From the NCBI GenBank assembly GCA_015057305.1, contig SVES01000001.1:1-64000 (forward strand): 64,000 bases of DNA, read 5' to 3'. Every line of letters begins with the position of its first letter. The stretch's first letter is position 1. The notes beneath the pieces were generated by a model, which saw nothing but the letters and a program-made list of their open reading frames with translations, had not been told where the DNA came from and made no database searches. The translations under genes were made by a program, and so were the position numbers. Positions 34,884 through 49,795 of the stretch are shown piece by piece. The stretch is from Pseudobutyrivibrio ruminis. GTDB lineage: Bacteria; Bacillota; Clostridia; Lachnospirales; Lachnospiraceae.

Positions 34884-36050
34884 CTACTCCATAAAATTCT
34901 TTATCACGTCTACTACGCGATGTACGCCTGCCTCATCTAGGTTGGTTGAGCATGGTACGTTGACTACGCGATGCCAGTACCATGGAGCGCAGGTTAGCTC
35001 ATAGGTGCGGGCGCCCTCGTATGGAAGCTGATCTGAAATAAGTCCCCAAATAGGGCGAGACTGAATATGAGCCTCCTTTAGAGCTTCGATAAGCTTATCG
35101 CGACCTTCTTCATCATTTTCGAATACTACAGAATAGAACCAATAATTGCTTCGGATTCCCTGGCGGAAATCCTGAACATGAAGACCTGGTAGCTTATCTA
35201 TTGCCTCTTTGTACAAATGATAATTTCTTTCTTTTGTTTTAATAAAATCCTCCAGCTGCTCTAGCTGTGCAAGACCAAGTGCTGCCTGAAGATTTGTCAT
35301 TCTATAATTAAATCCAATTTCATCATGGATGAAATTAGCCTGGTCAGCCTTAGCTTGTGTAGTCAAATGCTTAGCATGAGATAAAAGTGCCTCGTCATTA
35401 GAAACAATCATACCGCCACCGCCAGTAGTGATAATCTTATTTCCATTAAATGAGTAACAACCCATATCGCCTATGGTTCCAGCAAACTTTCCAGCATATT
35501 TTCCTTCTGTATAATATGTTCCAAGTGCTTCGGTAGCATCCTCAACAACCTTGATATTATACTTTTGGGCAATAGGCATTATAGCTTCCATATCTGCCAT
35601 GTTACCAAACACATGTACAACAACCATTGCCTTGATATGGCGTCCTGTGGCTCTATCTATGAGCTTACCATCTGTAAAATCACATTCCTCTTCGCAAAAC
35701 TTTTTAAGCTTTACCGGGTCAAGACACAGGCTATCATCGCAGTCCATAAATACTGGCTCGGCACCAATATATCTAGTAGGGTTGACTGCTGCAATAAATG
35801 TTAGAGTAGGAACGATAACTGCGTCCTCCCTGGTGACACCTGAAAGCAGCAAACTTATATGTAGGGCTGATGTACCATTTTGGGTGCTGACTGCACCTGG
35901 AGCCTTAACGTACTCAGCAATCTTTTTTTCAAAATCCGAAACATATGGGCCTGCTGTAGAAACCCATTCGGTTTCGACTGCATCAGTAACATATTTTAAT
36001 TCGTTTCCCTTTAAATTAGGCACTGAAAGTGCTATAAATTCATCTGACAT
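34884..36050 (-). CDS. legC: PLP-dependent sugar aminotransferase (LegC type)
   Basis: A 388-residue DegT/DnrJ/EryC1-family enzyme. The catalytic lysine is in CYSFNGNKIITTGGGGMIVS, the form found in LegC aminotransferases; the PLP-phosphate site is near TQNGTSALHISLL, and VVEDATEALGTYY supplies the acidic residue. It should aminate a 4-keto-6-deoxy sugar nucleotide made by LegB. The start is ATG at 36050, with AGAGGTG 7 bases upstream; a longer frame to 36104 runs into the hairpin region. It is followed after 6 bases by the PtmE-like gene. Confidence 0.87.
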   Translation of the reverse strand: MSDEFIALSVPNLKGNELKYVTDAVETEWVSTAGPYVSDFEKKIAEYVKAPGAVSTQNGTSALHISLLLSGVTREDAVIVPTLTFIAAVNPTRYIGAEPVFMDCDDSLCLDPVKLKKFCEEECDFTDGKLIDRATGRHIKAMVVVHVFGNMADMEAIMPIAQKYNIKVVEDATEALGTYYTEGKYAGKFAGTIGDMGCYSFNGNKIITTGGGGMIVSNDEALLSHAKHLTTQAKADQANFIHDEIGFNYRMTNLQAALGLAQLEQLEDFIKTKERNYHLYKEAIDKLPGLHVQDFRQGIRSNYWFYSVVFENDEEGRDKLIEALKEAHIQSRPIWGLISDQLPYEGARTYELTCAPWYWHRVVNVPCSTNLDEAGVHRVVDVIKNFME

Positions 36051-36065
36051 TTCAAAACACCTCTG

Positions 36066-36222
36066 ATCCGCTTGCGAATAGGCCATATACACATACAACG
36101 ACACGCTTGCGCTCTGCTTTTTCTACTTGCGTTACATAAGATGCCCCTTAACAGGGCCATCTAAGTAACGAGTGAAAAAGAAGGTCTTTTGTATGTGTAT
36201 ATGTCCCATTCTTCTGCTCATC
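36066..36222. repeat. Family-1 intergenic hairpin, copy A
   Basis: This fills most of the 192-base gap before legC. The conserved core runs from about 36101 to 36186 (TTGCGTTACATAAGATGC left, CATCTAAGTAACGAG right, short loop around 36149-36155). The outer arms are specific to this copy: left 36083-36102 reads CCATATACACATACAACGAC and pairs with 36184-36206. Weaker pairing continues outward. It ends about 15 bases before the legC start codon. No T tract follows, so it is not a standard terminator. Confidence 0.8.
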
Positions 36223-36242
36223 TAAAACTTGTAAATATACGA

Positions 36243-37220
36243 TTATATATTATAGATATCGACCTTGTACTTATCCATGTTCTCACGGAGGAAGGCGATG
36301 GTTTCGGCGAGGCCTTGCTCGAAGGTGTACTGAGGCTTCCAGTCGGTGAGACGCATGATTTTTTCGTTGCTGCCAAGGAGGCGATTTACCTCGCTCTTTT
36401 CTGGGCGGAGACGATCTTCATCGCAGATAATACGTGCATTTGGATTAATCTGACGGATAAGCTCTTCGGCAAGCTGTCCAATGGAGATTTCCTTCTGTGT
36501 TGCAATATTGATTTCCTGTCCGATTGTCTTGTCGCTTTCGTACATAGCAATAAAGCCATGGGCTGTGTCCTTTACGTAGTTGAAATCACGTGTTGGTGTA
36601 AGACTGCCAAGCTTGATTTCTTCCTTACCTGCAAGAAGCTGTGTAATAATTGTAGGAATTACTGCACGAGCTGACTGACGTGGACCAAATGTATTGAATG
36701 GGCGCACGATTGTTACAGGCAAGTCAAATGAACGATAGAATGACTCTGCCAATCTATCGGCACCAATCTTTGTAGCAGAATATGGTGACTGGCCCTGGTA
36801 TGGATGTTTCTCGTCAATTGGAACATACTGAGCGGTTCCATATACTTCGGATGTAGATGTTACAAGGACTCGAGTGCCAAGGTCTCTAGCAGCCTGAAGC
36901 ACATTTAATGTACCCTTGATGTTAGTATCTACGTATGCATCTGGGCTATGATAAGAAAATGGAATTGCAATAAGAGCAGCTAAATGGAATACTGCATCAA
37001 CGCCCTTCATTGACTCGCGGACACCATTTGGGTCACGGACATCACCTGCGAATACCTCCACATGATCCATGATTTCCTTAGGGAGTGTGTCTAGCCATCC
37101 CCAGTTATTGAAGGAGTTGTAATAAACAAATGCCCTTACCTCATATCCCTTTTTAACTAATTCCTCAACTAAGTGAGAACCAATAAATCCATCTGAACCT
37201 GTAACTAATACTTTACTCAT
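36243..37220 (-). CDS. legB: NAD-dependent sugar-nucleotide 4,6-dehydratase (LegB type)
   Basis: A 325-residue extended SDR with the Rossmann motif KVLVTGSDGFIGSHLVEELV, the catalytic STSEVYGTAQY (Ser/Thr, Asp/Glu region) and YSATKIGADRLAE (YxxxK), and VRPFNTFGPRQSARAVIPTI. The family includes LegB, which forms a 4-keto-6-deoxy-GlcNAc nucleotide. The next gene is LegC-like and the one after PtmE-like, supporting this identity. The start is ATG at 37220, with AGGAGG 4 bases upstream; a frame back to 37286 runs into the repeat. Family-1 hairpins bracket this gene on both sides. Confidence 0.87.
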   Translation of the reverse strand: MSKVLVTGSDGFIGSHLVEELVKKGYEVRAFVYYNSFNNWGWLDTLPKEIMDHVEVFAGDVRDPNGVRESMKGVDAVFHLAALIAIPFSYHSPDAYVDTNIKGTLNVLQAARDLGTRVLVTSTSEVYGTAQYVPIDEKHPYQGQSPYSATKIGADRLAESFYRSFDLPVTIVRPFNTFGPRQSARAVIPTIITQLLAGKEEIKLGSLTPTRDFNYVKDTAHGFIAMYESDKTIGQEINIATQKEISIGQLAEELIRQINPNARIICDEDRLRPEKSEVNRLLGSNEKIMRLTDWKPQYTFEQGLAETIAFLRENMDKYKVDIYNI

Positions 37221-37240
37221 CTTACCTCCTACGGCTTTCC

Positions 37241-37370
37241 AGAATAATATAAAACTCCAGCAGACACGCTTTCGCTCTGCTCTCACTCGTTGCGTTACAT
37301 AAGATGCTCCTAGCGGACCATCTAAGTAACGACGGTTCGAGAAGGTCTTGCTTGAGTCTTATATTATTCT
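37241..37370. repeat. Family-1 intergenic hairpin, copy B
   Basis: It lies in the 203-base gap between the capsule-type gene and legB. The core matches copies A and C (CACGCTTTCGCTCTGC, GCGTTACATAAGATGC, CATCTAAGTAACGA). The outer arms differ from theirs: AGAATAATATAAAACTCC at 37241 pairs with the run ending ATATTATTCT at 37370. It ends 20 bases before the legB start codon, just outside its ribosome binding site. The remaining gap (37371-37423) shows nothing further. Confidence 0.8.
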
Positions 37371-37423
37371 TCCAATCCTTATATTTCTAAATACTAAAAA
37401 CAGACTTATGTAATACATACCAC

Positions 37424-38857
37424 CTATGATTTCATCTCTACGAAATATGAATACATGGAATCGGCGACGAGAGCCAGGTTGTCGTCGGCTAGGCGAGCCT
37501 CGCTCATTACGTATGTATTGCCTGGGCGGGCGTGTGACATGTACACCGCCATGTACTGAATTATTTCATCTCTGGTTGGCTGTTTGTATTCCGCCATCAT
37601 CTTTTCGTAATTTTCAAATACTTCCTCCAGGTACATAACTCCTGGGGCACCCTTATAAATAATGTCACCACTCATAAATACTGGGTGTCGAAGTAGCATG
37701 GCTTCCTGACCTGCTGTTCCAGTAAGTGTTGCTACACACTGACTCTTTTCGATAAGCTTAATTGAATCCTCCCATGGGTCAATAAGCACCACATTAGGAT
37801 AAAGCTTTAACTGCTCATAAAAGCTATTTTCTCTGATACCAAGGAAAGAGTAGTGTTCCTTCACATAAAGCATGGTATCTGCTGGCAAAGATTTTACCAG
37901 GCTATCAATAAAATATAGCTGCTTTTCGTACTTTTGGGCACACACTATTGTAGTAGCCTCTGGCTGCATGTGAAGTGGGAAATATACAAATTTCTTATTC
38001 AAATCAGCCTTTTGGTTGAAATACTTTCTCGCTTTTAAATATCTAAAGAAAAATACAAGCTCATCCATTGTGTGCTCATATGCCTTGTAGTAGATATATG
38101 AGCCCTTGTCCCTTGTAAATGGATTGAAAAATCTCTGTCTTAAATAAAACAATGGCAAAATGAAAAACTTTGCCTTCCATTTTGGCTTCTTGCCAGAAAA
38201 GCTCATAAATGCTGGTTTTGAATGTTTCTCCTCAAATCCTGAAAGAAAAGCCTCTGCCTTGGCGCGCTGTTCATCAGTAACAGGGATGCTGGCATAATCC
38301 TCTGGCATATCGTACATTTTTTCAAATGGATCATTCAAAATATAATGATGTGTCAAATCCATGCCACAGGCTCTCATAAACATAAGAGAATAATAGCCTG
38401 TACCTGTCTTCTTTCCAACCAAATATGCTGCATATGTAAGCAGAGTGGCTATAACCTCATCATAGAAAAAGTCCACATTATATGTGGTAAAAACATATTC
38501 CCAAAACGCAAAAAGACCTGCAGCTGTATGCACGCAGTAGTCATAATCTCTATATATTAAATATCTATCTGTGTAGATATATTTCCAAATAGGTGATGCA
38601 TCATATTTGGCCTCGTATTCTTGAAGCTTTTCCACTGTGAATTCATCCCAGTGAGCATTCATGAATTTAGAAATCTCACAAATCTCGATATTCTTTTTTT
38701 CTTCTTCAGTAAATTTATTATCTATATAGGCCGTTTCTTTTTTATCACAGGTGATAAAAACGCCCTTTACGTCCTCATGCTTTTCCCTGAGCTTTTTATA
38801 AACAGCAGGGGAGAAATCGTCAAATGGGCGTCTAGCCATAAAACAAATAGTGTACAC
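37424..38857 (-). CDS. Capsule-type glycosyltransferase (PF05159-like), candidate nonulosonic acid transferase
   Basis: A 477-residue soluble protein. The C-terminal half shows the Capsule_synth pattern: FVYFPLHMQPEATTIV, LPADTMLYVKEHYSFLG, then VVLIDPWEDSIKLIEKSQCV and TLTGTAGQEAMLLRHPVFMS. Relatives include KpsS/KpsC and transferases in sialic- and legionaminic-acid loci. As first gene of the block that continues with legB and legC, it may attach the nine-carbon sugar; this is inference. It starts at GTG 38857 with AGGAGA 7 bases upstream, and its own promoter precedes it. Confidence 0.72.
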   Translation of the reverse strand: MYTICFMARRPFDDFSPAVYKKLREKHEDVKGVFITCDKKETAYIDNKFTEEEKKNIEICEISKFMNAHWDEFTVEKLQEYEAKYDASPIWKYIYTDRYLIYRDYDYCVHTAAGLFAFWEYVFTTYNVDFFYDEVIATLLTYAAYLVGKKTGTGYYSLMFMRACGMDLTHHYILNDPFEKMYDMPEDYASIPVTDEQRAKAEAFLSGFEEKHSKPAFMSFSGKKPKWKAKFFILPLFYLRQRFFNPFTRDKGSYIYYKAYEHTMDELVFFFRYLKARKYFNQKADLNKKFVYFPLHMQPEATTIVCAQKYEKQLYFIDSLVKSLPADTMLYVKEHYSFLGIRENSFYEQLKLYPNVVLIDPWEDSIKLIEKSQCVATLTGTAGQEAMLLRHPVFMSGDIIYKGAPGVMYLEEVFENYEKMMAEYKQPTRDEIIQYMAVYMSHARPGNTYVMSEARLADDNLALVADSMYSYFVEMKS

Positions 38858-38889
38858 TTTTAAATCTCCTATTATTAGACATTCACTTT

Positions 38890-38918
38890 ATCTTAATTAA
38901 GAATTAGAAAGTTGTCAA
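38890..38918 (-). promoter_or_regulatory. Sigma-A-type promoter starting the nonulosonic acid block
   Basis: On the minus strand TTGACA (38918-38913) and TAAGAT (38895-38890) are separated by 17 bases. This consensus -35 lies in the 63-base gap after the Wzx gene and about 33 bases before the GTG start of the capsule-type gene. It implies a transcription start inside the glycan locus. Confidence 0.7.
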
Positions 38919-38920
38919 TT

Positions 38921-40285
38921 TTATCTAATCATCATGTAAACTGCCACCCCTGGCACCATAATAGCAACCGCTGGGCCCCAGCTGTTAATCAGCAATTTCC
39001 AGAAGGAAAATTTGAACCTCTTGGAAAGCTTTATAATTAGCAATAATGAATACAGTGCATAGGAAATACCTGTACCAATAGCTACCATATTTATACTTCT
39101 ATCTACAAATAATACCAGTCCGCTAGAAAAGATTGCATTGAAAATACAAAGAGCGACTGAATTGGCAATTAATGATTTATTTAGCTTAAGTACCGAAAAA
39201 ATATTGCCATAAAGCATTGTTGTTGCATAAATTCCCACACCTATTACCAATATCTGTGTAGCTGCTGTACCTTCTGTATACATAGGCATAAAGAAATGTA
39301 CAAATACTGGCATTACATAAAATACAAATATGCAAGCTGCCCCTGATATTACTGATGTAATTCTGGTGAAATATGCAGCCTTTTCCAGCAATTCATTTTC
39401 ATCATTATTTGCCCCATATAGGTGGCTGACCTTTATATAAAACACCTGTGAAATGGTTTGTGGCACAAGCACCATTGTGGTAAATCCCATAAGTGGTACT
39501 GAATACACTCCCAAATCTTCTGTTGATAAAAATCCAAGTATTACAAATTTATCTACAGATTGAACAATTGTCCAAATCAAGCTATTGATTAAAAGTGGCA
39601 AGCCGCTGATAATCATTGCTTTCATATATGGGAAATCGAAGGTCAATCTAGCCCCTTTAAAGGCCTCGCTTCTAAATAACAATATTCCCAATGCTGCGGA
39701 AGATAGTGTCATTGCATATAGACCATAATATCCAGCAACATTTATTGCAACTACACCTATTATTAAAGCAATTACTGTTCTAATAAATCCTATAATTGCA
39801 GATTTATTATAGTGACCATTCATTCTGACTGTAGCGTTTGACATATCATCAAAGCTTTTTAGCAAAATGAGTATGGGGCACATTGCATAACCAAATGCAT
39901 AGTAAGTTCCATAGGTGTCATTGCCGATAACGCTATGATAATGAACAGCTACCCACAGCTCGAAAACGACAAAAATCAATGCATATATCATCAGCATAAA
40001 TGTGATAGCTGTATTTTTTAGCTTATTAGCTTCCTGCATGTCTCCCTTGCCAAGCATCTGTGGATAGTCTCTGTTATAAGCGTTAAGTACACCAAACTGA
40101 GCATAATTCATATATGTCTGAGCTAATAGACATGTGCTATATATTCCAAGAGGTAGGGTAGCTACTACCGATTTATTATATACGCTAAAAATAAATGACA
40201 TTGCAGAGCAGGCAACGGTTGATAAAGTTACCAATATAAAATCTGCATTTTTAATTTTCTCTAGCAGTTTTGTAAGCTTCTTCAT
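38921..40285 (-). CDS. Wzx-type polysaccharide flippase
   Basis: A 454-residue protein with about 12-14 membrane segments of the Polysacc_synt/MOP type (VTLSTVACSAMSFIFSVYNK at the first helix, GLPLLINSLIWTIVQSVDKF in the middle). It should flip the undecaprenyl-diphosphate repeat unit to the outer leaflet, upstream of a Wzy polymerase. Its start lies 35 bases inside the end of the preceding GT4 gene, implying coupled translation. Substrate specificity is not readable. Confidence 0.82.
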   Translation of the reverse strand: MKKLTKLLEKIKNADFILVTLSTVACSAMSFIFSVYNKSVVATLPLGIYSTCLLAQTYMNYAQFGVLNAYNRDYPQMLGKGDMQEANKLKNTAITFMLMIYALIFVVFELWVAVHYHSVIGNDTYGTYYAFGYAMCPILILLKSFDDMSNATVRMNGHYNKSAIIGFIRTVIALIIGVVAINVAGYYGLYAMTLSSAALGILLFRSEAFKGARLTFDFPYMKAMIISGLPLLINSLIWTIVQSVDKFVILGFLSTEDLGVYSVPLMGFTTMVLVPQTISQVFYIKVSHLYGANNDENELLEKAAYFTRITSVISGAACIFVFYVMPVFVHFFMPMYTEGTAATQILVIGVGIYATTMLYGNIFSVLKLNKSLIANSVALCIFNAIFSSGLVLFVDRSINMVAIGTGISYALYSLLLIIKLSKRFKFSFWKLLINSWGPAVAIMVPGVAVYMMIR

Positions 40286-41345
40286 AAATCTTTAAAACTT
40301 CTTCCATATATGTGTCAAAGTTATTAAGGTCTTTGGCACGTTTTCTGGCTCCTTCGGACTTCATTCTATATATTTCACTATTGTCCAAAAGTTCACATAT
40401 ATTTTCTACAAAAGCCTCTCTATCCACAGGCTTCTTGCTTGAGCCGCATATTTTTCCACAATCATCATTCACAGTGGTAATAAGCCCACCGATTCTGCTG
40501 GCAAGAACTGGCTTTCCAAAAGCCATTGCCTCCACAGCAGCCATTCCAAAGCCTTCAAATTTGGATGGAGCTACCAGTATTTTGGTCTGATTCATGTATA
40601 TATATGGATTATGCTGCAAACCAACCATTTTGATGTTGTTGTTTAACCCCAGCTTGCCAATCAACTCCAGACATTCACTTCCTAAATCTCCTCCACCTAC
40701 CATGATGGCTTTTACTTCAGGATGAGTTTTCCTAACCTCATTTACTATTCTAACGAACTCGTATGGGTTTTTATCATCGGTGAGATATCCAACAAAAAGC
40801 AAATCAGATTTGTAGCCTTCCAGCTTTTCTTTTGACATTTCTGTGCCAGCTACATAGCCTCTTTCGAATATCTTTACAGCGTTGAAAGGCGTGCCAAGTA
40901 CAACTGTTTTTCCTTCCATCTTATCCCTAAACCAGGCTTTTTCCTCAACAGCCTTTACCGGAATAATGATTTTAGCAAAATTCTTGCAGGCACCTCCATA
41001 GATAACTGACTTTGGACCTATTTTCTGGACCCACTTAGGAACAGAATACAAATGGCTAATAATTGGGATAGAATCTGTTACCTTAGTGCACATCAGGCTA
41101 CAATCATATTCGTAGGCGTGAATGATGTCAGGCTTCACTTCTTCGATAGTCCTTTTTATAGACTCTTCGTTCACCTTTTCCACGCCAATATACTCAATGT
41201 CCTGCTCTAGAAGCTTTGTTTCTACAGAGCCTGTAGCAGTTAGATATACACTGTGGATATAATCTGGCATAGCCTTAATAATATTAATAGCTACGTTCTC
41301 CATTCCACTATATGTATTTGACTTTGAAATATGTAATATTTTCAT
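40251..41345 (-). CDS. GT4-family glycosyltransferase
   Basis: A 364-residue GT-B enzyme. The N-terminus is MKILHISKSNTYSGMENVAI. The C-terminal domain has LLFVGYLTDDKNPYEFVRIV and KILVAPSKFEGFGMAAVEAM followed by AFGKPVLASRIGGL, the GT4 ExxxG donor motif. It acts on the cytoplasmic side in repeat-unit assembly. A family-2 hairpin lies 22 bases upstream of its start. The end overlaps the Wzx gene. Confidence 0.85.
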   Translation of the reverse strand: MKILHISKSNTYSGMENVAINIIKAMPDYIHSVYLTATGSVETKLLEQDIEYIGVEKVNEESIKRTIEEVKPDIIHAYEYDCSLMCTKVTDSIPIISHLYSVPKWVQKIGPKSVIYGGACKNFAKIIIPVKAVEEKAWFRDKMEGKTVVLGTPFNAVKIFERGYVAGTEMSKEKLEGYKSDLLFVGYLTDDKNPYEFVRIVNEVRKTHPEVKAIMVGGGDLGSECLELIGKLGLNNNIKMVGLQHNPYIYMNQTKILVAPSKFEGFGMAAVEAMAFGKPVLASRIGGLITTVNDDCGKICGSSKKPVDREAFVENICELLDNSEIYRMKSEGARKRAKDLNNFDTYMEEVLKIYEEAYKTAREN

Positions 41346-41367
41346 AAAACCCCCAGCCCCTTTATCC

Positions 41368-41456
41368 GTAAATAGTTACGCCTACAAGCATTATTTATCT
41401 TCATTCGGCAGAAACGCCTCATTCAGAAAAATAATAGCTTGTTGTCTACTATTTAC
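41368..41456. repeat. Family-2 intergenic hairpin, copy 2
   Basis: The outer arms are GTAAATAGT and ACTATTTAC (9 perfect pairs). The left arm continues GTTACGCCTACAAGCATTAT, and the right has ATAATAGCTTGT. Inner pairs join TCATTC with GAATGA. It fills most of the 115-base gap before the GT4 gene at 40251-41345. Confidence 0.8.
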
Positions 41457-41460
41457 TCAT

Positions 41461-42666
41461 CTAAACAATCTTACGGTAGATATCCTCCATTACAGTGTTA
41501 ACGTGGGATTTGTCGAAGTTTTGCATTACCTCAACATTATGAGCCCCCATGCTTTCACGTATAGCTGGAGTTGTTGCCAGCATCCTCTGTAAAGCCTCTA
41601 CCAGCGTTTTTGTATTTTTCGAATCGAAGAGATATCCACCTTCGCCCTCGGTAATCAAATCAGTGTTTCCACGAATTTTGCTACAAACCACTGGCATGCC
41701 TACGCTCATGGCTTCCATCAATGCTACAGGAAGTCCCTCCTGATGTGATGGGAAGACGTATATATCGCTGGCTGCAAATACATCTGCAACATCTCTTCTA
41801 AAGCCAAGCATCTGCACCTGAGCTGACAAGCCCATTTCGTTAATCTTTTCCTGCAGCTCCTGTCCCAGCTTTCCTCGACCTGCAATAAGATATTTCACCT
41901 TGTACTTAGGAGATACTCTTTCGTCACTTCCTACTGTATCCAGTATCCCTTGCTCATCCATCAGCTTAAGGGCTTCCAGCACTTCTATATGATTCTTTCT
42001 AGGAATCAATTCTCCTACAGAAAGAAGTACTATTGTATCAGCTTCTATACCAAGCTCTTTTCTGATTTTTTCTCGTGCGCCTTCGCTTGCAACAAACTTA
42101 TTTGTATCTACACCAGCTCCAGGCACATAAGCAATATGCTTAGCCTTGAACTTCTTAGCGTTTGCATAATCTTCTTGATTGATAGTTATCAACAGGTCGG
42201 TGAATCTGCTGCACCATTTTTCCACATTGTAAAAGATCAACCAGTTCTTAAGTGGAGCTCCCTCAAAGAAATGAAATCCATGGGCTGCATAAATTACTTT
42301 TGTGCCATACAGCTTTCTAGCCTTACGACAAGCCAATCTACAAATAACGCCGCCTATTGGGGACTGAGTGTGGACTATCTCATACTGATTAGTCTCCACC
42401 TCGTGCTTTAACTGCCTATATGCTTTTAAAAGCTCTTTTAAATTAAAGATTTTTCTTAGGCTTGCAGTTTCAATCACTCTACATCCCAGTTCATCCAGCA
42501 ATTGTCTGCGCTTTACCATAGCCTCTGGGGACAAGGCGCTGTCATCATCCTGCCAACAACAAGCAACATCCACCGTATAGCCAAGCTTCTGTAAAATCTT
42601 AATATTATCTATATTAAATTGTGTCACCATGTACGCTGTGTGCGCATGCATAAGTGCTTTTCTCAT
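41461..42666 (-). CDS. GT4-family glycosyltransferase (EpsD/PglA-like)
   Basis: A 401-residue enzyme. The N-terminal half has HTQSPIGGVICRLACRKAR and VIYAAHGFHFFEGAPLKNWL, typical of EpsD- and PglA-type transferases that add the second sugar to a lipid-linked bacillosamine- or GlcNAc-type residue. The C-terminal half has LLSVGELIPRKNHIEVLEAL and FPSHQEGLPVALMEAMSVGM. The start is ATG at 42666, with GGGAGA 6 bases upstream. It directly follows a phosphoglycosyl transferase, consistent with adding sugar two. Confidence 0.87.
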   Translation of the reverse strand: MRKALMHAHTAYMVTQFNIDNIKILQKLGYTVDVACCWQDDDSALSPEAMVKRRQLLDELGCRVIETASLRKIFNLKELLKAYRQLKHEVETNQYEIVHTQSPIGGVICRLACRKARKLYGTKVIYAAHGFHFFEGAPLKNWLIFYNVEKWCSRFTDLLITINQEDYANAKKFKAKHIAYVPGAGVDTNKFVASEGAREKIRKELGIEADTIVLLSVGELIPRKNHIEVLEALKLMDEQGILDTVGSDERVSPKYKVKYLIAGRGKLGQELQEKINEMGLSAQVQMLGFRRDVADVFAASDIYVFPSHQEGLPVALMEAMSVGMPVVCSKIRGNTDLITEGEGGYLFDSKNTKTLVEALQRMLATTPAIRESMGAHNVEVMQNFDKSHVNTVMEDIYRKIV

Positions 42667-42682
42667 ATCTATCTCCCGCTCG

Positions 42683-42705
42683 TTACGCATACAAGCATTA
42701 TTATT
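42683..42705. repeat. Half copy of a family-2 element
   Basis: GTTACGCATACAAGCATTAT matches the left arm of family 2, with no matching right arm nearby. It sits in the 50-base gap before the GT4 gene at 41461-42666 and supplies the longer frame that extends past the chosen start. Confidence 0.6.
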
Positions 42706-42716
42706 TTTTCGAAGCC

Positions 42717-44099
42717 TTACTTCTTTACGTTAGCGTTAGTCTCTCCTTCGGCTACGCCTTCGGTGGCATCCTTTGTAAAGATAACACGCAATGTCATAAG
42801 GATTAATTGTATATCCAAAAGTACTGAGCATTTCTCACAGTAAATCATATCCAGCTTTAGCTTGTCATAGGATGTTGTATTGTATTTTCCGTAAACCTGG
42901 GCGTAGCCTGTAAGTCCTGCCTTTACATGGGTACGGAATGCAAACTCTGGCACTTCCTTAACATATTCAGCAATTATTTCAGGTCGCTCTGGGCGAGGTC
43001 CTACCACTGACATTTCACCTTTAAGAATATTGAAAAATTGTGGCAGTTCATCAATTCTTGTGGCTCTAATAAAATGTCCTATTGGTGTAATTCTGTCATC
43101 ATTTTCACTGGCAAGCCTTGCTTTTCCATCCTTTTCAGCATCAGTAATCATTGAACGGAATTTCATAATCTTGTATTCTTTTCCACCGATAGTGCAGCGG
43201 GTCTGTTTATAAAAGACTGGTCCGCCATCATATTTGTGGATAAGTATAGCTGTCACAAGCATAATTGGTGATGTAATAATGATTCCAATACCGGAAATCA
43301 AAATATCCCCTACACGCTTGATTGTTGCAGAAATGGCATCCATTCCAACATTTTTGCAAAGGTACAAAGGCGTATCGAAAAGATTTACCTCATCTGAACC
43401 TTTGATTAAAATATCTGATATTTTCGGAGTAAAATATACTCGTTTATCTGTGGCAAAGCACGCCTTTACAATATCGTTTCTAATCTCAGATGGCACATCA
43501 TTTACAAGTACTGCATCATAGTTTTCCAATTCTCTAGTGATTTTCTCTAATGGCTCAGTGCAGCTCATTTCACCAGTGATACGATATTTATCAGCACGTC
43601 GATTCATCTTCATAACCAAATCATTTTCGTGCTCACCATATATATTTAAAATGGTAAATGGTGGAAAAACAGCTCTATATATTTTTGTGCTTACATAGGT
43701 CACTACTAAAACTGCAACAGCCTGTGCCACAGTAAGTACAATTACATATGCAAGTGTAATCCACATCAAAACCCTAATACGAGTCATTAACAGCAATATG
43801 ATAAACTCTAGCAAATTTACTAACCCCATAGCTATTGCCTGGGACATTGTCAAAATAGAAATTCTTCCACTTCCAATGCTAAAGCCCTTGAATGTATTAA
43901 TCATCAATACTGTCAAAACCACATAAAGGCCTATCATTAAATAGTTACCAACGCTAAGAAAACGCTGCATCATCAGCATTTGAAAGCGCATGTACCACAT
44001 AACGCCGAAGAGCGTGGCTAGCACTGTGACTAAAACCACGCTACTTACAAAGCGAAATATTCTTTTTTTTGTTTCTAAATTAGTTACATTATTTGTCAT
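42717..44099 (-). CDS. Polyprenyl-phosphate sugar phosphotransferase (second initiating PGT)
   Basis: A 460-residue protein. N-terminal membrane segments span to about residue 145; a middle domain follows, and the C-terminal sugar-transferase domain starts near residue 262 with KRVGDILISGIGIIITSPIM. Further marks are GPVFYKQTRC, IMKFRSMITDAEKDGKA and IRATRIDELPQFFNILKGEM with SVVGPRPERPE. It has the same domain order as the gene at 21980-23347. It is followed by the EpsD/PglA-like GT4. The two copies may start two different glycans or use different sugars. Confidence 0.9.
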   Translation of the reverse strand: MTNNVTNLETKKRIFRFVSSVVLVTVLATLFGVMWYMRFQMLMMQRFLSVGNYLMIGLYVVLTVLMINTFKGFSIGSGRISILTMSQAIAMGLVNLLEFIILLLMTRIRVLMWITLAYVIVLTVAQAVAVLVVTYVSTKIYRAVFPPFTILNIYGEHENDLVMKMNRRADKYRITGEMSCTEPLEKITRELENYDAVLVNDVPSEIRNDIVKACFATDKRVYFTPKISDILIKGSDEVNLFDTPLYLCKNVGMDAISATIKRVGDILISGIGIIITSPIMLVTAILIHKYDGGPVFYKQTRCTIGGKEYKIMKFRSMITDAEKDGKARLASENDDRITPIGHFIRATRIDELPQFFNILKGEMSVVGPRPERPEIIAEYVKEVPEFAFRTHVKAGLTGYAQVYGKYNTTSYDKLKLDMIYCEKCSVLLDIQLILMTLRVIFTKDATEGVAEGETNANVKK

Positions 44100-44109
44100 A
44101 GTATTCCTA

Positions 44110-46956
44110 CTAGAAGCTCTTATTCATATCTACATATCCCTTTATTCCTGGCACTGAACCCTTGCTTGAGTATTGCCAAATATTCTTTCTTCCAGAATAT
44201 GTACATGATGTGTTATATTGTGCAATCCATACGCTACATGAGCCTGGTATAGAATTTGCATCCATTAGGCTATTCATCCAGTTCTTACTACAGTAAACTC
44301 CTGCCTTATAGCCTGAGGATTGAACTGTAGATACAAATGCATTAACAATTGCCATTCTCTGTGCTGTAGAAAGTGAGCTCTGTCCTCTCACCTTGTCTTC
44401 CATATCTATAAAGATTGGATAAGAACATCCACCTGCCTTTTGAGCCATTGCAACTGCCATTGATGCTTCTTGAACTGCTTCAGCCTCATTTAGTGCTGTT
44501 GAATAGATGTATACACCTACGCTAACGCCATTTGCCTTCGCACCAGACATGTTCTTGTAGAAGTATGGATCCTCATGAAGCTGTCCGTCATTCATACCTC
44601 TATATCCGCAACGTACAATTGCAAAGGATACAGCTGACTTTGTCTGAGACCAGTCAATCGTTGCCTGATACTTGGAAACATCAATTCCTGTTCCCTTGTT
44701 AGCTAATACACCATCTGTACCAAAATCATAGCTTACACCCTGGATAATCTGTGTTCCTGTAACCTTGTTACCGTTCTTATCAAAGTAATAGGTATTACCC
44801 TCTATGGATTGCCAACCGTAATAGGTGTATGTTGCAGCCTTATAATAATAGGTCTTCCCTTGCTCATAATCTGCTGCTGTAGCTGCCTTAGTGCATGCCT
44901 CATCCAAGTATAACTGATTTCCAGCCTTATCTACTAATGGGTCTGTCGATGCTGTACCAAAGCCTGAAACTGTGTATGTGACAGATAATTTCTTTTCACC
45001 ATCAGCAAATTTTACGACACCAGCTAAAGTGTAATCGCCATCTTTTGTAGCCTTGTAGGTTGCAGTGCCATCCTTAAGCGTTACTGCTACACCATTTACT
45101 GTTACATTTGTTACTGCTGCACCATTTGTCCCTGTTGACTTTATTGTAAAGGTTCCCTCTTTGTATGACATATCAAGAGTAACCTTTGCATCCACCGTCT
45201 CAGTAACTGTTTCATTCTTCTTGTATGTAAATGTAATTGTTCCATCTGCCGAGATTGTTCCACTTGCAGGATTTCTAGACTGAAGTGTATATCCTGTAAC
45301 TGTTGGTGCTGTAATGGCACTATAATCTGAGCCACTTTCTACTATAACTGATGTTTTCTTATCATCAGGTGTAAGTGCTGCATTTGCAGTGTCAACACAT
45401 TTTATTGTTATTGTGTGTTTTGCAGGTTCCTGGGGTGCTGTTTCTTTCTGAGTATATGTTAAAGTAATTGTTTCATCCTTTGAGGCAGTCCCAGTAACTG
45501 TCTTATTTGCTGGTTCTGTATACCCATCTATGGCAGGAGCTGTATAGGTATATTCCTTTCCAGACTCAACCTCCTGCTCCGCTGTTTTAAGTGTTACATC
45601 ACCACATACACACTTAAATGTAATTTTATATTTAGTAGTTTGCTGTTCTGTTGTGGTTTCTTCTGTAGTGGTTTCATCTTGAGTTTCGCTAGTTGTTGGC
45701 GTCTCTGTTGATGGCTGCTCTGCAGTTTTTATCGCATTTCCGAATAAATTCACTGCCAGGTTTTTAGTAGCAACTGCAACTGCTCCATTTACTTTGATAA
45801 TTGCCCTGGATGTTGTCTTAGCTATCTTTCCTGTAACCTCCACAACAGCCCCATCCTTTTTGGTTGCCTTGCTGGCGCTAGCCGTTGTTTTAGGTGCTAC
45901 CGCTTCAGTTGTAGATTTTACTGAGCTTCCATTTTCCACTTTTTGGGATTCAACATACTCCACGGTGTCAGTCTGTACATTTTCAACAGGAACCTCTGCC
46001 GCTGCAGCCTTTTGTCCATCCTCGGAAGCCACATCCTTCTTAACCTGCTTTATAATTTCCTTTTGAACCTTGTATTCAACCTTATCTTTTACATTTGCTG
46101 CAGTTTCGTATGTGCTTGGCTCATAGCTTACCTGAGCCTCCACATCATTAACGAGGCAAATCACATAATCTCCAGGTTCAAGATCAGTCTCTGTAATAAT
46201 GCCATCCTGGTCATCATCCGTGAAAACTGTTCCTTCAGCCTCATTTAATGCAACTGCGAAGGACTGAACTGCAGTCTCTTTATCAATAAGCAAAGTGTAC
46301 AAAGGATCTGCGCTGATATCACCGTGCTGGGTCTCTACAACATTTCCATCTTCATCAGTAACTGTAACGTCCACATTTCTCTCTTCTAGAATCTCCATGA
46401 CTCTATCTGCAGTATTTGGCAATGTGGCTACGTCTACAGATTCTTTTTCTTCTGACGTTTCATTTTCTTCACCATCTGAAAAATCTATTTCCTCACCATC
46501 TACTGGAAGTGAACCGTCATCTTCAGCTGCTGTTGTATCTTCTTCATCAGTGGATGAATACTCAGCTACATATTTATTAATTTCTGAATCTAAATTATCT
46601 ATAGCATCCACATAGGATTGTAGTCCCTCTGCTGCCTCTGGTGTTAAAAGCTTAATCTGAAAAGGTACTCCCGCTATCGGATTATCATTTTCGTCTGATA
46701 TATATACTGTCAAATCCTTTTCTAAGGACTCACTAGTAATAAATACGCTTTTAAATTCTGGGATGTAGACATCAGCTGCTTGGTATTCTTCTTCAACCTG
46801 GGCAACCTCAACTGGAACTTCTTCAGCATCCACCAGGTTATAGATTCCATACCCTCCAGCTCCAACTGCTGATACGCCTACGACACTAGCTACCGCAATA
46901 CTGGCAGCCTTATGTCCTGCAATAAACAATTTGATGCTTTCCCAAATTTCTTTCAT
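44110..46956 (-). CDS. Modular surface-associated GH25 muramidase
   Basis: A 948-residue protein. A short cytoplasmic leader and one membrane segment (about 18-40) are followed by a large acidic and Thr/Ser/Lys-rich region. Two MucBP-like repeats come at about 440-585 (KYKITFKCVCGDVTLKTAEQ; KHTITIKCVDTANAALTPDD), then a choline-binding-like unit (YYGWQSIEGNTYYFDKNGNK). The last 194 residues are a GH25 lysozyme domain (TGIDVSKYQATIDW, catalytic pair in FIDMED near 851-853, IWQYSS). It should hydrolyse peptidoglycan outside the cell. In this locus it may make room for, or process, the glycan; that is inference. Confidence 0.85.
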   Translation of the reverse strand: MKEIWESIKLFIAGHKAASIAVASVVGVSAVGAGGYGIYNLVDAEEVPVEVAQVEEEYQAADVYIPEFKSVFITSESLEKDLTVYISDENDNPIAGVPFQIKLLTPEAAEGLQSYVDAIDNLDSEINKYVAEYSSTDEEDTTAAEDDGSLPVDGEEIDFSDGEENETSEEKESVDVATLPNTADRVMEILEERNVDVTVTDEDGNVVETQHGDISADPLYTLLIDKETAVQSFAVALNEAEGTVFTDDDQDGIITETDLEPGDYVICLVNDVEAQVSYEPSTYETAANVKDKVEYKVQKEIIKQVKKDVASEDGQKAAAAEVPVENVQTDTVEYVESQKVENGSSVKSTTEAVAPKTTASASKATKKDGAVVEVTGKIAKTTSRAIIKVNGAVAVATKNLAVNLFGNAIKTAEQPSTETPTTSETQDETTTEETTTEQQTTKYKITFKCVCGDVTLKTAEQEVESGKEYTYTAPAIDGYTEPANKTVTGTASKDETITLTYTQKETAPQEPAKHTITIKCVDTANAALTPDDKKTSVIVESGSDYSAITAPTVTGYTLQSRNPASGTISADGTITFTYKKNETVTETVDAKVTLDMSYKEGTFTIKSTGTNGAAVTNVTVNGVAVTLKDGTATYKATKDGDYTLAGVVKFADGEKKLSVTYTVSGFGTASTDPLVDKAGNQLYLDEACTKAATAADYEQGKTYYYKAATYTYYGWQSIEGNTYYFDKNGNKVTGTQIIQGVSYDFGTDGVLANKGTGIDVSKYQATIDWSQTKSAVSFAIVRCGYRGMNDGQLHEDPYFYKNMSGAKANGVSVGVYIYSTALNEAEAVQEASMAVAMAQKAGGCSYPIFIDMEDKVRGQSSLSTAQRMAIVNAFVSTVQSSGYKAGVYCSKNWMNSLMDANSIPGSCSVWIAQYNTSCTYSGRKNIWQYSSKGSVPGIKGYVDMNKSF

Positions 46957-46983
46957 TTATTATCTCCCTTTTATGTCTACCGA

Positions 46984-47565
46984 TTAGAGTGAAATTCCAT
47001 GCTCTGCGCAATAATCCTTATATGATGCATTAACCTTATCCTTATCTGACAAGATTAAATCTGCCTCAGTCATTCCCTCTGGAATAGGCCACTGAACAGC
47101 GATATCTGGGTCATTATACATTAAACCACCCTCATCATTTGGATGGTAAAAATCTGTAACCTTATAGCAGAACTCTGCATAATCGCTTACAACTAAGAAA
47201 CCATGAGCAAAGCCCTTTGGAATCATAAACTGCTTTTTATTTTCTGCTGAAAGCAAAATTCCATAGTGCTTACCAAAGGTTTTTGAACCTTCACGTAAAT
47301 CCACTGCCACGTCGTATACCTCGCCTGAGATTACGCGCACCAGTTTATCCTGTGGAAAATTCTTCTGAAAATGAAGGCCACGGAGTACACCCTTCTTTGA
47401 AGCAGACTGATTATCCTGTACAAATACATAATCTAAACCTTCTGCCTTCATATCATTTTCATTATATGTTTCTACGAAGTAACCACGTTCGTCGCCAAAA
47501 ACCTTAGGTGTAATAACACATAAGCCTTCTATACCATTTACATTTTTTTCAACTGTAATTGCCAT
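46984..47565 (-). CDS. rfbC: dTDP-4-dehydrorhamnose 3,5-epimerase
   Basis: A 193-residue cupin enzyme of normal length. It has VFGDERGYFVETYNENDM at the N-terminus, VLRGLHFQ with the catalytic histidine, and FMIPKGFAHGFLVVSD. It inverts C3 and C5 of dTDP-4-keto-6-deoxyglucose on the way to dTDP-L-rhamnose. A family-1 hairpin ends only about 9 bases before its start codon, and its own ribosome binding site is weak. Hairpin-linked control of translation is therefore possible. Confidence 0.95.
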   Translation of the reverse strand: MAITVEKNVNGIEGLCVITPKVFGDERGYFVETYNENDMKAEGLDYVFVQDNQSASKKGVLRGLHFQKNFPQDKLVRVISGEVYDVAVDLREGSKTFGKHYGILLSAENKKQFMIPKGFAHGFLVVSDYAEFCYKVTDFYHPNDEGGLMYNDPDIAVQWPIPEGMTEADLILSDKDKVNASYKDYCAEHGISL

Positions 47566-47573
47566 AGTCTTTG

Positions 47574-47738
47574 TTCAAATCACATAAGCAAGCTGATTAT
47601 ATTTATTTCAATGACACGCTTTCGCTCTGCTTTCTCTACTTGCGTTACATAAGATGCTCTCTTCGAGACCATCTAAGTAACGAGTGAAAAAGAAGGTCAT
47701 TTGAAATTAATATAATCATCTTCCCCTGTGATTTGCTC
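47574..47738. repeat. Family-1 intergenic hairpin, copy C
   Basis: This is the longest copy, about 165 bases, in the 210-base gap between rfbA and rfbC. The core is nearly identical to copies A and B. The outer arms, GATTATATTTATTTCAATGAC on the left and its imperfect complement on the right, are unique to it. Pairing extends further out to AAATCACA (47577-47584) against TGTGATTT (47727-47734). The left arm abuts the rfbC start. Beyond it (47739-47775) only an AT-rich stretch is seen. Confidence 0.82.
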
Positions 47739-47775: not shown

Positions 47776-48654
47776 TTATAGTCCGTTTGCTACGTCTACG
47801 AGATATTTGCCGTAGTCTGTTTTCATAAGAGGCTCGGCAAGCTTTAGTAGCTGCTCTTTATCGATGAAGCCACGCTTGTATGCAATTTCTTCGATGCATG
47901 ATACGTACATGCCTTGACGCTTTTGGAATGTGCTGACAAATTCTGCAGCTGCAAGAAGCATGTCGTGGTTTCCTGTGTCAAGCCATGCAAATCCACGGCC
48001 AAGAGTCTCAACATGGAGATTTCCTCTTGATAAGTACTCATTATTTACTGCTGTGATTTCAAGTTCACCACGTGCTGAAGGCTTAATAGTCTTGGCAATT
48101 TCTACTACTGAATTGTCGTAGAAATACAAACCTGGAACAGCATAGTTACTCTTTGGCTGAGCTGGCTTTTCCTCAATTGAAATAGCCACACCATTTTCAT
48201 CAAATTCTACAACGCCGTACTCTCTTGGGTCACGAACATAGTAACCAAAGATTGTAGCTCCTGGCTCACTTTCTGTACGCTTTGCTGCTGAAAGAAGAAC
48301 CTTCGAAAATGACTGACCGTAGAATATATTATCGCCAAGAACTAATGCTACTGCATCATTTCCTATGAAATCAGCTCCAATAATAAATGCTTCAGCAAGA
48401 CCATTTGGAGCCTCCTGAATTGCATACTGGATATCCATTCCAAGCTGCTTACCATCGCCAAGAAGTTCCTCGAATACTGGTAAATCTCTTGGTGTAGAAA
48501 TGATTAATACCTCACGGATGCCAGCCAGCATCAATGTAGAAAGTGGGTAATAAATCATTGGCTTATCATAAATTGGCATGATCTGTTTGCTAATTGCCTT
48601 TGTAAGTGGATAAAGTCTTGTGCCTGAACCACCTGCTAAAATAATACCCTTCAT
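47776..48654 (-). CDS. rfbA: Glucose-1-phosphate thymidylyltransferase
   Basis: A 292-residue enzyme that makes dTDP-glucose, the first step to dTDP-rhamnose. The N-terminal signature is [20 protein letters not shown] followed by [35 protein letters not shown] and [20 protein letters not shown] are typical RmlA. The start is ATG at 48654, with AGGAGG 6 bases upstream; the frame continues upstream without a site. It follows glf with a small gap. Confidence 0.96.
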
Positions 48655-48673
48655 ATTTTCCTCCTGATATGTT

Positions 48674-49795
48674 TTACGCAAATTCTTCTGCCACCGCGTC
48701 GAGAGCGGCAGCTACTACTTTGTCCATGTCATAGTATTTGTATTGGCCTAGGCGACCACCGAAGATTACATTCTGTTCCTTTGCGGCGCGGTCGGCATAC
48801 CGCTGATACAATGCATTGTTTTTGTCGTTATTTACTGGGTAGTATGGCTCAACACCAGGCTTCCATTCGCTAGAGTATTCTCTAGAAATAATTGTGGTAG
48901 GCTGTTTGCCAAATTCAAAGTGCTTGTGTTCAATGATACGGGTATATGGTACATCTGCTGCTGTATAGTTAACTACAGCATTTCCCTGGTAATTTTCGCA
49001 GTCAAGCTTTTCTGTCTCGAAGCGAACTGAACGATACTCAAGAGGGCCATAGCAGCTATCAAAGTATTCATCAATCTGACCTGTAAATAGTAGCTTGTCC
49101 CAGGCAACCTCTGTGCCCTCCTTTAGCTTATGCTCCTTTGCAAGTTCGAAATAATCCTGCTCAAGAACTACATCTGCTCCTTCAAGCATCTTCTCCACAA
49201 TCTGTGTATAGCCACCCATTGGAATACCTTGGAATCTATCGTTAAAGTAATTATTGTCATAGGTAAATCTTAGTGGCAATCTCTTGATGATAAATGCTGG
49301 CAGCTCGTCGCATGGACGTCCCCATTGCTTCTGGGTGTAGCCTTTGATAAGCTTTTCATACACATCTGTACCTACAAGAGAAAGAGCCTGCTCCTCAAGA
49401 TTCTTTGGCTCGGCAATATTCAATTCTTTGATTTGGTCTGCAATTATAGCCTTTGCCTCTTCCGGTGTTTTAATACCCCACATTTTAGAAAATGTATTCA
49501 TATTGAATGGAAGATTATAAAGCTCGTTTCCATAAATAGCCACAGGAGAATTAATATAATTATTAAACTCCGCAAACTGATTTATGTATTCCCAGATCTT
49601 TTTATCACTTGTATGGAAAATGTGGGCACCATATACATGTACATTGATGCCATCCTCTTCCTTTGTATATATATTACCTGCAATGTGGTCGCGTTTGTCA
49701 ATTACAAGCACTGACTTTCCACGCTTCATAGCCTCATAGCTAAAAACCGCACCAAATAGACCTGCGCCCACTACTAAGTAGTCGTATTTTTTCAT
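48674..49795 (-). CDS. glf: UDP-galactopyranose mutase
   Basis: A 373-residue FAD enzyme converting UDP-galactopyranose to UDP-galactofuranose. It shows the FAD motif [20 protein letters not shown], then [16 protein letters not shown] and [20 protein letters not shown], and the C-terminal [19 protein letters not shown]. This predicts galactofuranose in the surface polymer alongside rhamnose. Its start immediately follows the rfbB stop (no gap). Confidence 0.96.

Follow-up and report, generated by a model that had tools for sequence, protein, structure and literature searches.

The window analysed here, 64,000 nucleotides of Pseudobutyrivibrio ruminis DNA (positions 1 to 64,000 of the forward strand of contig SVES01000001.1, assembly GCA_015057305.1), holds three copies of a palindromic element, A, B and C, in spacers whose adjoining sugar-nucleotide genes read along the minus strand. 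Copy A (36064..36224, minus strand) lies between a gene for an NAD-dependent epimerase/dehydratase (36243-37220) and one for a DegT-family aminotransferase (34884-36050); its ends by eye, in minus-strand letters, are TAGATGAG at 36217-36224 and CGGATCA at 36064-36070. The same epimerase/dehydratase gene borders copy B (37230..37381, minus strand; right end GCCGTA by eye, left end approximate), on whose other side is a capsule-synthesis-like gene (37424-38857). Copy C (47576..47735, minus strand; ends CAAATCAC/GTGATTTG by eye) is flanked by a nucleotidyltransferase gene (47776-48681) and a dTDP-4-dehydrorhamnose 3,5-epimerase gene (46984-47565). A sequence-only reading had picked out all three, with a nearly identical core and with arms that differ between copies while pairing within each. 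The positions and the core letters hold, each of the two core words having three exact matches in the window, and so does the self-pairing of the arms, over 23 nt at 91% (A), 33 nt at 79% (B) and 22 nt at 91% (C).

On the minus strand the three copies fold alike, as a three-way junction of a long outer stem (P1), a second stem (P2) interrupted by the conserved internal loop CUUAG/UAUG, and a third stem (P3) that is a two-pair hairpin capped by a GNRA loop. Covariance models built from 19 copies (R1) and from 150 hits (R2) match the core on the minus strand at 36092..36193 in A (106.2 and 95 bits, respectively), at 37255..37354 in B (100.2 and 95.1 bits) and at 47605..47705 in C (113.3 and 101.1 bits). 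The minus-strand folding z is −8.2 for A, −6.4 for B and −6.6 for C, and 0 of 200 dinucleotide shuffles fold equally well. Because the element is palindromic, the plus strand also folds well (z of −6.3, −5.5 and −6.6). Its energies of −49.8, −45.5 and −42.3 kcal/mol, against −56.8, −56.3 and −50.0 kcal/mol for the minus strand, together with the GNRA loops and the direction of the adjoining genes, are the reason for taking the minus strand as the structured one.

Two ready classifications of such a hairpin were tried and rejected. In copies A to C a scan for a GC stem plus T run found no terminator-like site at the foot of any of them, and gave one short match within the core of copy A; an intrinsic terminator is rejected for these copies, in which no GC stem is directly followed by a T run. 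A known Rfam family (Rfam 15) is likewise rejected, no covariance model matching the element: there were 0 matches at gathering score within the window, and with the limit relaxed to E = 5 around A and B, and to E = 1 in eight loci, still none overlapped the element.

The conserved core and its arms

Across 140 distinct aligned rows the paired cells of the core come to 91.4%, and 32 of the 33 core pairs have changed on both sides. The covariance check proposed with the sequence-only reading came out strongly for the core, with a score of 0.611 against 0.153 when shuffled and at most 0.126 when slid, in an alignment of mutually related rows that was fitted to the model and so favours the structure. 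The P3 loop is GNRA in 130 of the 137 four-base loops of these rows. The CUUAG/UAUG internal loop resembles the 11-nt tetraloop receptor. Docking of the GNRA hairpin into that loop in cis is not claimed here, as the short P3 seems too distant.

Covariation is the standard proof of functional RNA structure. Another possible source of it is DNA replication: if template switching alone kept the arms matched, with no selection at the RNA level, covariation would be a mutational by-product. The scarcity of G-U pairs in the core goes in that direction (88 of 4113 standard-paired core cells, with 60 A-C cells, and in the middle of P2 just 4 of 1238, outnumbered by 20 A-C, all of these being raw counts). 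Conservation of the GNRA loop and of the internal loop speaks against it, and we regard template switching as rather unlikely to be the whole account; its further evidence, from the arms, is taken up below. As to why the core has been kept, either a mobility protein or host factor may recognise it, or it may render the long hairpin harmless in an operon transcript.

Pairing of the arms was scored over about 70 bases outside the core, one side being aligned to the reverse complement of the other, in the best 150 of 153 hits, of which 148 had usable flanks and 126 remained after removal of near-duplicates. A copy's own arms outscore its best swapped-arm control in 123 of the 126 distinct copies (mean score 52.4 for own arms and 17.6 for swapped arms, with 31.5 for the best swapped). 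The pairing outside the core, on which the sequence-only reading had made its claim depend, thus survives comparison with swapped arms. The exceptions are L029, whose 3′ side is broken by an insert, L120:19117-19215 and L046:329-425.

That reading had treated the variable arms as lying outside the element, and here it needs correction. In copy A the arms are followed by the short ends given above, and short ends beyond the arms recur in many copies of the genus, often TAGATGAG and CGGATTA/CGGACTA by eye, while other genus copies end, also by eye, in GGC.../GCCGTA. Because the recurring ends come after the arms, the variable arms are placed inside the element, which is about 150-210 bp in size. 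The contrast drawn earlier with repeats of fixed arms is borne out among Pseudobutyrivibrio copies, whose arms differ widely, and fails among the copies of one relative, G146, where they are nearly fixed.

Distribution, ends and mobility

The search of the genome and its relatives for the core, advised in the sequence-only reading, found more copies in the genus, in the family and in one genome outside it. A strict core pattern occurs at 23 places in 10 of 61 genomes, namely that of the window and nine more from the genus. R1 has matches in 26 of 29 Pseudobutyrivibrio genomes, in 36 of 150 genomes sampled across the family Lachnospiraceae and in 9 of 196 from a sample of the order, every one of them again a member of that family. 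Matches to R2 were found in five of 398 genomes of a phylum sample, four of them in the family, including the window's own, and one outside it (G722); both copies of the latter also fold with the long arm stem. Copy counts, which are lower bounds where RNA-model searches over more than 40 genomes used stricter filters and the best 10 to 27 candidates per genome, stand at seven in the window's genome and reach at least 21 matches, at unrelated sites, in one genome of the family sample (G139; E <= 0.001). Exact core matches in named records amount to 21 stretches, from Pseudobutyrivibrio and one Lachnospiraceae MAG, and viral contigs gave 0 matches to the strict Pseudobutyrivibrio-type form of the core pattern. 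A search of titles and abstract openings for work on repeats or on RNA motifs in Lachnospiraceae or Butyrivibrio, mostly outside subscription journals, found no description of this family, nor is it described in the portions of PMC8040213, PMC10969869 and PMC3446304 that were compared.

The ends are clearest in G146. There, 16 of the 17 copies among the matches listed can be aligned along some 208 bp; their arms are similar, and their ends are inverted and close to AGGCGATTGCGAAACTCTT. L066, the remaining copy, combines the common core with unrelated outer arms. The end word GGCGATTGCGAAACTCTT has 51 matches in this genome at up to 3 mismatches, against 1 for a control word, and many of these are inverted pairs around the element, that is, terminal inverted repeats. 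Pseudobutyrivibrio ends are by eye only imperfectly inverted. Flanking direct repeats exceed the 95th percentile of mismatched-flank controls at 12 of 19 G146 end pairs and are not above control at the other seven; six pairs (L200, L201, L206, L207, L208 and L211) have perfect target-site duplications of 9-12 bp. Duplications of this length fit a DDE-type transposase. None was recognised by eye in Pseudobutyrivibrio. In G146 there are also shortened forms, of 31, 64, 78, 87 and 138 bp, as well as one longer form, of 346 bp. The assemblies of G146 and G158, both in many contigs, were searched with short end words, and in neither was there an autonomous IS or transposase whose ends match. In G158 the same right end and 3′ arm are joined to a differently built P2 (L340 is like L337, and L346 like L349), which suggests exchange of arms, cores and ends among copies.

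Copies may also stand in pairs. The pflB-pflA spacer has two family-1 copies (family 1 being the present element) in opposite orientations, each with its own arms, in L125:1363-1625, L126:1421-1689 and L127:1378-1639, with 63-69 bp between the core matches. Inverted pairs with short spacing recall BIMEs, and an element of the REP kind, single-stranded and mobilised by a RAYT/Y1 transposase, would share with the present one its palindromic form, its intergenic position, its two orientations and these inverted pairs. Such an origin is very improbable given the 9-12 bp target-site duplications of G146 and an element length several-fold that of REPs, for which the part of PMC3733652 compared gives 20-40 bp. 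No GTAG/CGTC tag of the REP type was noticed by eye at the element ends.

Filled, flipped and empty sites

The spacer between asnS and asnA (gene names here are inferred from Pfam matches) was compared at 29 loci, 11 of which contain the element. It has one orientation at five (L138, L141, L142, L145 and L157) and the opposite one at six (L139, L140, L146, L148, L149 and L151), and in the second group related arms have turned along with the core. This is best read as inversion in place, the alternative being independent insertion. By eye, the spacers of six other loci (L153, L154, L156, L158, L159 and L162) are short and have neither arm; the remaining 12 loci have other repeats, other sequence or a contig end. 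That one spacer holds the element either way round, or is short with neither arm, argues that the arms belong to the element.

The gene at the site of copy A was found in 18 of 29 genomes. The core is present in 11 of its spacers (eight flagged by script, with L320, L321 and L323 added by eye). L315 has the outer hairpin alone, joined at a CATATG repeat; L318 is bare, with neither arm; L325 has a short spacer; L324 and L330 have other repeats, and L328 other sequence (L331 was left out of the classification). Between species the arms range from nearly the same to unrelated. The empty sites that it had been suggested to look for therefore exist, at the six asnS-asnA loci and at L318.

These sites bear on the second of the two origins offered in the sequence-only reading, inverted copying of the flanking DNA. 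If this were so, or if the core entered pre-existing palindromes, the arms would be host sequence. The bare hairpin of L315 is readable as an unfilled target, CATATG being a 6-bp duplication in L316, and L066, with its common core within unrelated arms, is of the kind expected. The six asnS-asnA spacers and L318, however, have neither arm, 16 of the 17 G146 copies have similar arms, and in several species the A-site arms are by eye homologous straight across the CATATG point, for which reason deletion within the hairpin is the simpler reading of L315. Both versions, entry into an existing palindrome and duplication of the host flank, are rejected as quite improbable, because sites that lack the element lack both arms. 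What stands of the earlier proposal is that inverted copying seems to occur inside the element, from arm to arm in L145, and not of the flanks.

Several other repeats share these spacers. A GC-rich inverted-repeat element with GGCGAC/GTCGCC ends lies alongside family 1 in the asnS-asnA spacers of L138-L151 and others, in both orientations. A third hairpin family, with AAGC ... GCTT arms, is found in L143, L147, L150, L165 and L324; its ends resemble the TAGATGAG/CGGATTA of family 1, and at the asnS-asnA site it is likewise found both ways round. A second small hairpin is built around a conserved centre, GATTGC-TTTA-GCAATC or close to it, and has variable self-complementary arms of its own. It lies inside family-1 cores in L028 and L029 at the pflB-pflA site and in L321 at the A site; by eye, its position in L029 and L321 is in the region of the GNRA loop. 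The A-site spacer of L328 is taken up by tandem TTTTACTGTAG-like direct repeats rather than by the element.

With gene orientation taken from a simple longest-ORF caller, 57 of the 74 distinct copies in the genus are sense with both neighbours, 13 are antisense and 4 have one neighbour uncalled. The 52 copies in other genera have no preference (14 sense, 14 antisense, 12 convergent, 10 divergent and 2 uncalled). At the loci examined with Pfam the neighbours are unrelated in function (asnS/asnA, pgk/tpiA, cysS/ispF, pflB/pflA and sugar-nucleotide genes), which is unlike a regulator of a single pathway. A cis-acting structured RNA of the host, whether intercistronic regulator, stabiliser or processing signal, would have immobile copies and a P1 under RNA selection. 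The GNRA loops and the sense bias in the genus suit it, as does the G-U bias of outer-arm wobbles in sense copies given below. It is nonetheless improbable in view of the mixed orientation in other genera, orthologous copies that face both ways, the target-site duplications, and the want of a common function among AsnA, triosephosphate isomerase, YgbB, PFL-activase-like and sugar genes.

Arm maintenance and kinship with known repeats

At one asnS-asnA locus, L145, an arm appears to have been rewritten from its partner. Over 40 bases its 3′ arm is 95% identical to those of L141/L142 and its 5′ arm 82%; the changed stretch of the 5′ arm is mostly the reverse complement of L145's own 3′ arm, and self-complementarity is 0.88, against 0.75 for L141/L142. 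One or two positions of the copied stretch mismatch, and two changes nearer the core bring no gain in pairing. Overwriting of this sort is the mark that replicative template switching predicts, and L145 is a single clear case. (When all copies were compared pairwise for replacement of a single arm, free end gaps mostly joined unrelated arms, and a stricter rerun was used.) A role for template switching in the origin and upkeep of RNA hairpins has been proposed (part of PMC8794818), and in yeast arm homogenisation and spacer inversion are given as its outcomes (part of PMC8604942). In-place inversion would be the second outcome to expect when the template is switched between inverted repeats.

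Among 43 pairs of similar copies, some of them probably not orthologs, there are 71 double changes from one Watson-Crick pair to another, where about 11 are expected by chance, and 32 of the 71 are transversions, unreachable through G-U. A further 29 pairs have changed on both sides without pairing, and the one-sided changes comprise 59 to G-U, 24 to A-C and 130 to other mismatches. From the non-pairing double changes and the many one-sided mismatches it follows that pairing is imperfectly guarded. The excess of one-sided G-U over A-C changes is significant (p = 1.5e-4).

Wobbles in the outer arms, counted in 122 of the 126 copies, follow transcription: in copies sense with both neighbours G-U to A-C is 39 : 13, and in antisense copies 11 : 22 (Fisher p = 2.4e-4). 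The genus antisense copies alone have the opposite trend (4 : 0), the sense copies of other genera alone have no bias (9 : 8), and with all copies pooled the ratio of 75 : 58 is not significant (p = 0.17). A mutation bias linked to transcription could mimic part of this polarity. For template switching alone, then, there are the arm transfer of L145, the two orientations at one site and the transversions among the double changes; this wobble polarity and the one-sided preference for G-U are against it, as are the conserved loops of the core. The GNRA loops and the transcription-following bias suggest that there is RNA-level selection too. Selection for a long RNA hairpin, the other origin offered in the sequence-only reading, accordingly has partial support, from the covariation, the GNRA loops and the wobble polarity. 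Our reading is that both forces act on the arms, with template switching making the large steps.

All considered, A, B and C are probably old insertions of a non-autonomous, palindromic, MITE-like element of the Lachnospiraceae, in which a conserved folded core is set between long self-complementary arms and the short ends vary by lineage. A transposase acting in trans would move the element together with its arms, the arms would drift after insertion, and template switching within the hairpin, along with selection against broken transcript pairing, would keep them complementary. The observations behind this reading are the multiple copies in many genera, the conserved core structure, presence and absence as well as both orientations at orthologous sites, the duplications in G146, the core-less forms and the one arm transfer. 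Descent and drift do not explain well the unrelated arms of L066 and of L326, L327 and L329, the last three at the A site.

If the reading is right, what is new is a mobile element of family-wide occurrence, with a three-way junction as its conserved core and no Rfam 15 match, in gut and rumen bacteria, sitting inside housekeeping operons (asnS-asnA, pgk-tpiA and pflB-pflA, as named from Pfam) and surface-sugar operons. It provides very strong natural covariation in many copies, together with orthologous sites that are filled, flipped, core-less or empty. The accounts from DNA replication, by template switching, and from RNA selection give separable predictions, and both appear to leave traces. 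A wider proposal, tentative and possible rather than probable, is that this is a family of mobile structured RNAs whose folded core is the deeply conserved part on which selection acts, whereas stems and ends are exchangeable, with arms rewritten by template switching, cores that flip in place and lineages that swap ends. Were arms and ends exchangeable in this way, the covariation of palindromic repeats would be largely producible by DNA replication, and covariation statistics alone would overstate RNA selection.

In kind the element stands near MITEs and palindromic repeats (bcr1, BOX, REP), except that what is conserved lies in the middle and the arms and ends around it are exchangeable. 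Conservation of the interior across genera is unusual for a MITE, whereas this element keeps its interior core and changes its ends. Prokaryotic MITEs including BOX, RUP and SPRITE are, like the element, short and intergenic with flanking direct repeats, and have stable stem-loop transcripts and insertions of one element into another, as described in part of PMC10969869. The bcr1-bcr3 repeats of the Bacillus cereus group are also MITE-like, intergenic and often inside transcripts, and of the bcr series bcr10 and bcr18 are said to have conserved secondary structure (part of PMC3446304). Compared by those descriptions, the element differs from bcr1-bcr3 in having one structured core across many genera, with ends that differ where examined, and arms that differ between copies yet stay complementary. 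Structured RNA candidates from the human microbiome include 250 palindromic ones among 3161, of which 230 are predicted terminators and 20 are not; the four examples named in the part of that paper compared (PMC8040213) are mostly or entirely from Bacteroidetes, unlike this family. REP/BIME palindromes resemble the element in being intergenic, in both orientations and in inverted pairs (part of PMC3733652), but the element is much larger, has a three-way-junction core and, in one relative, is flanked by target-site duplications.
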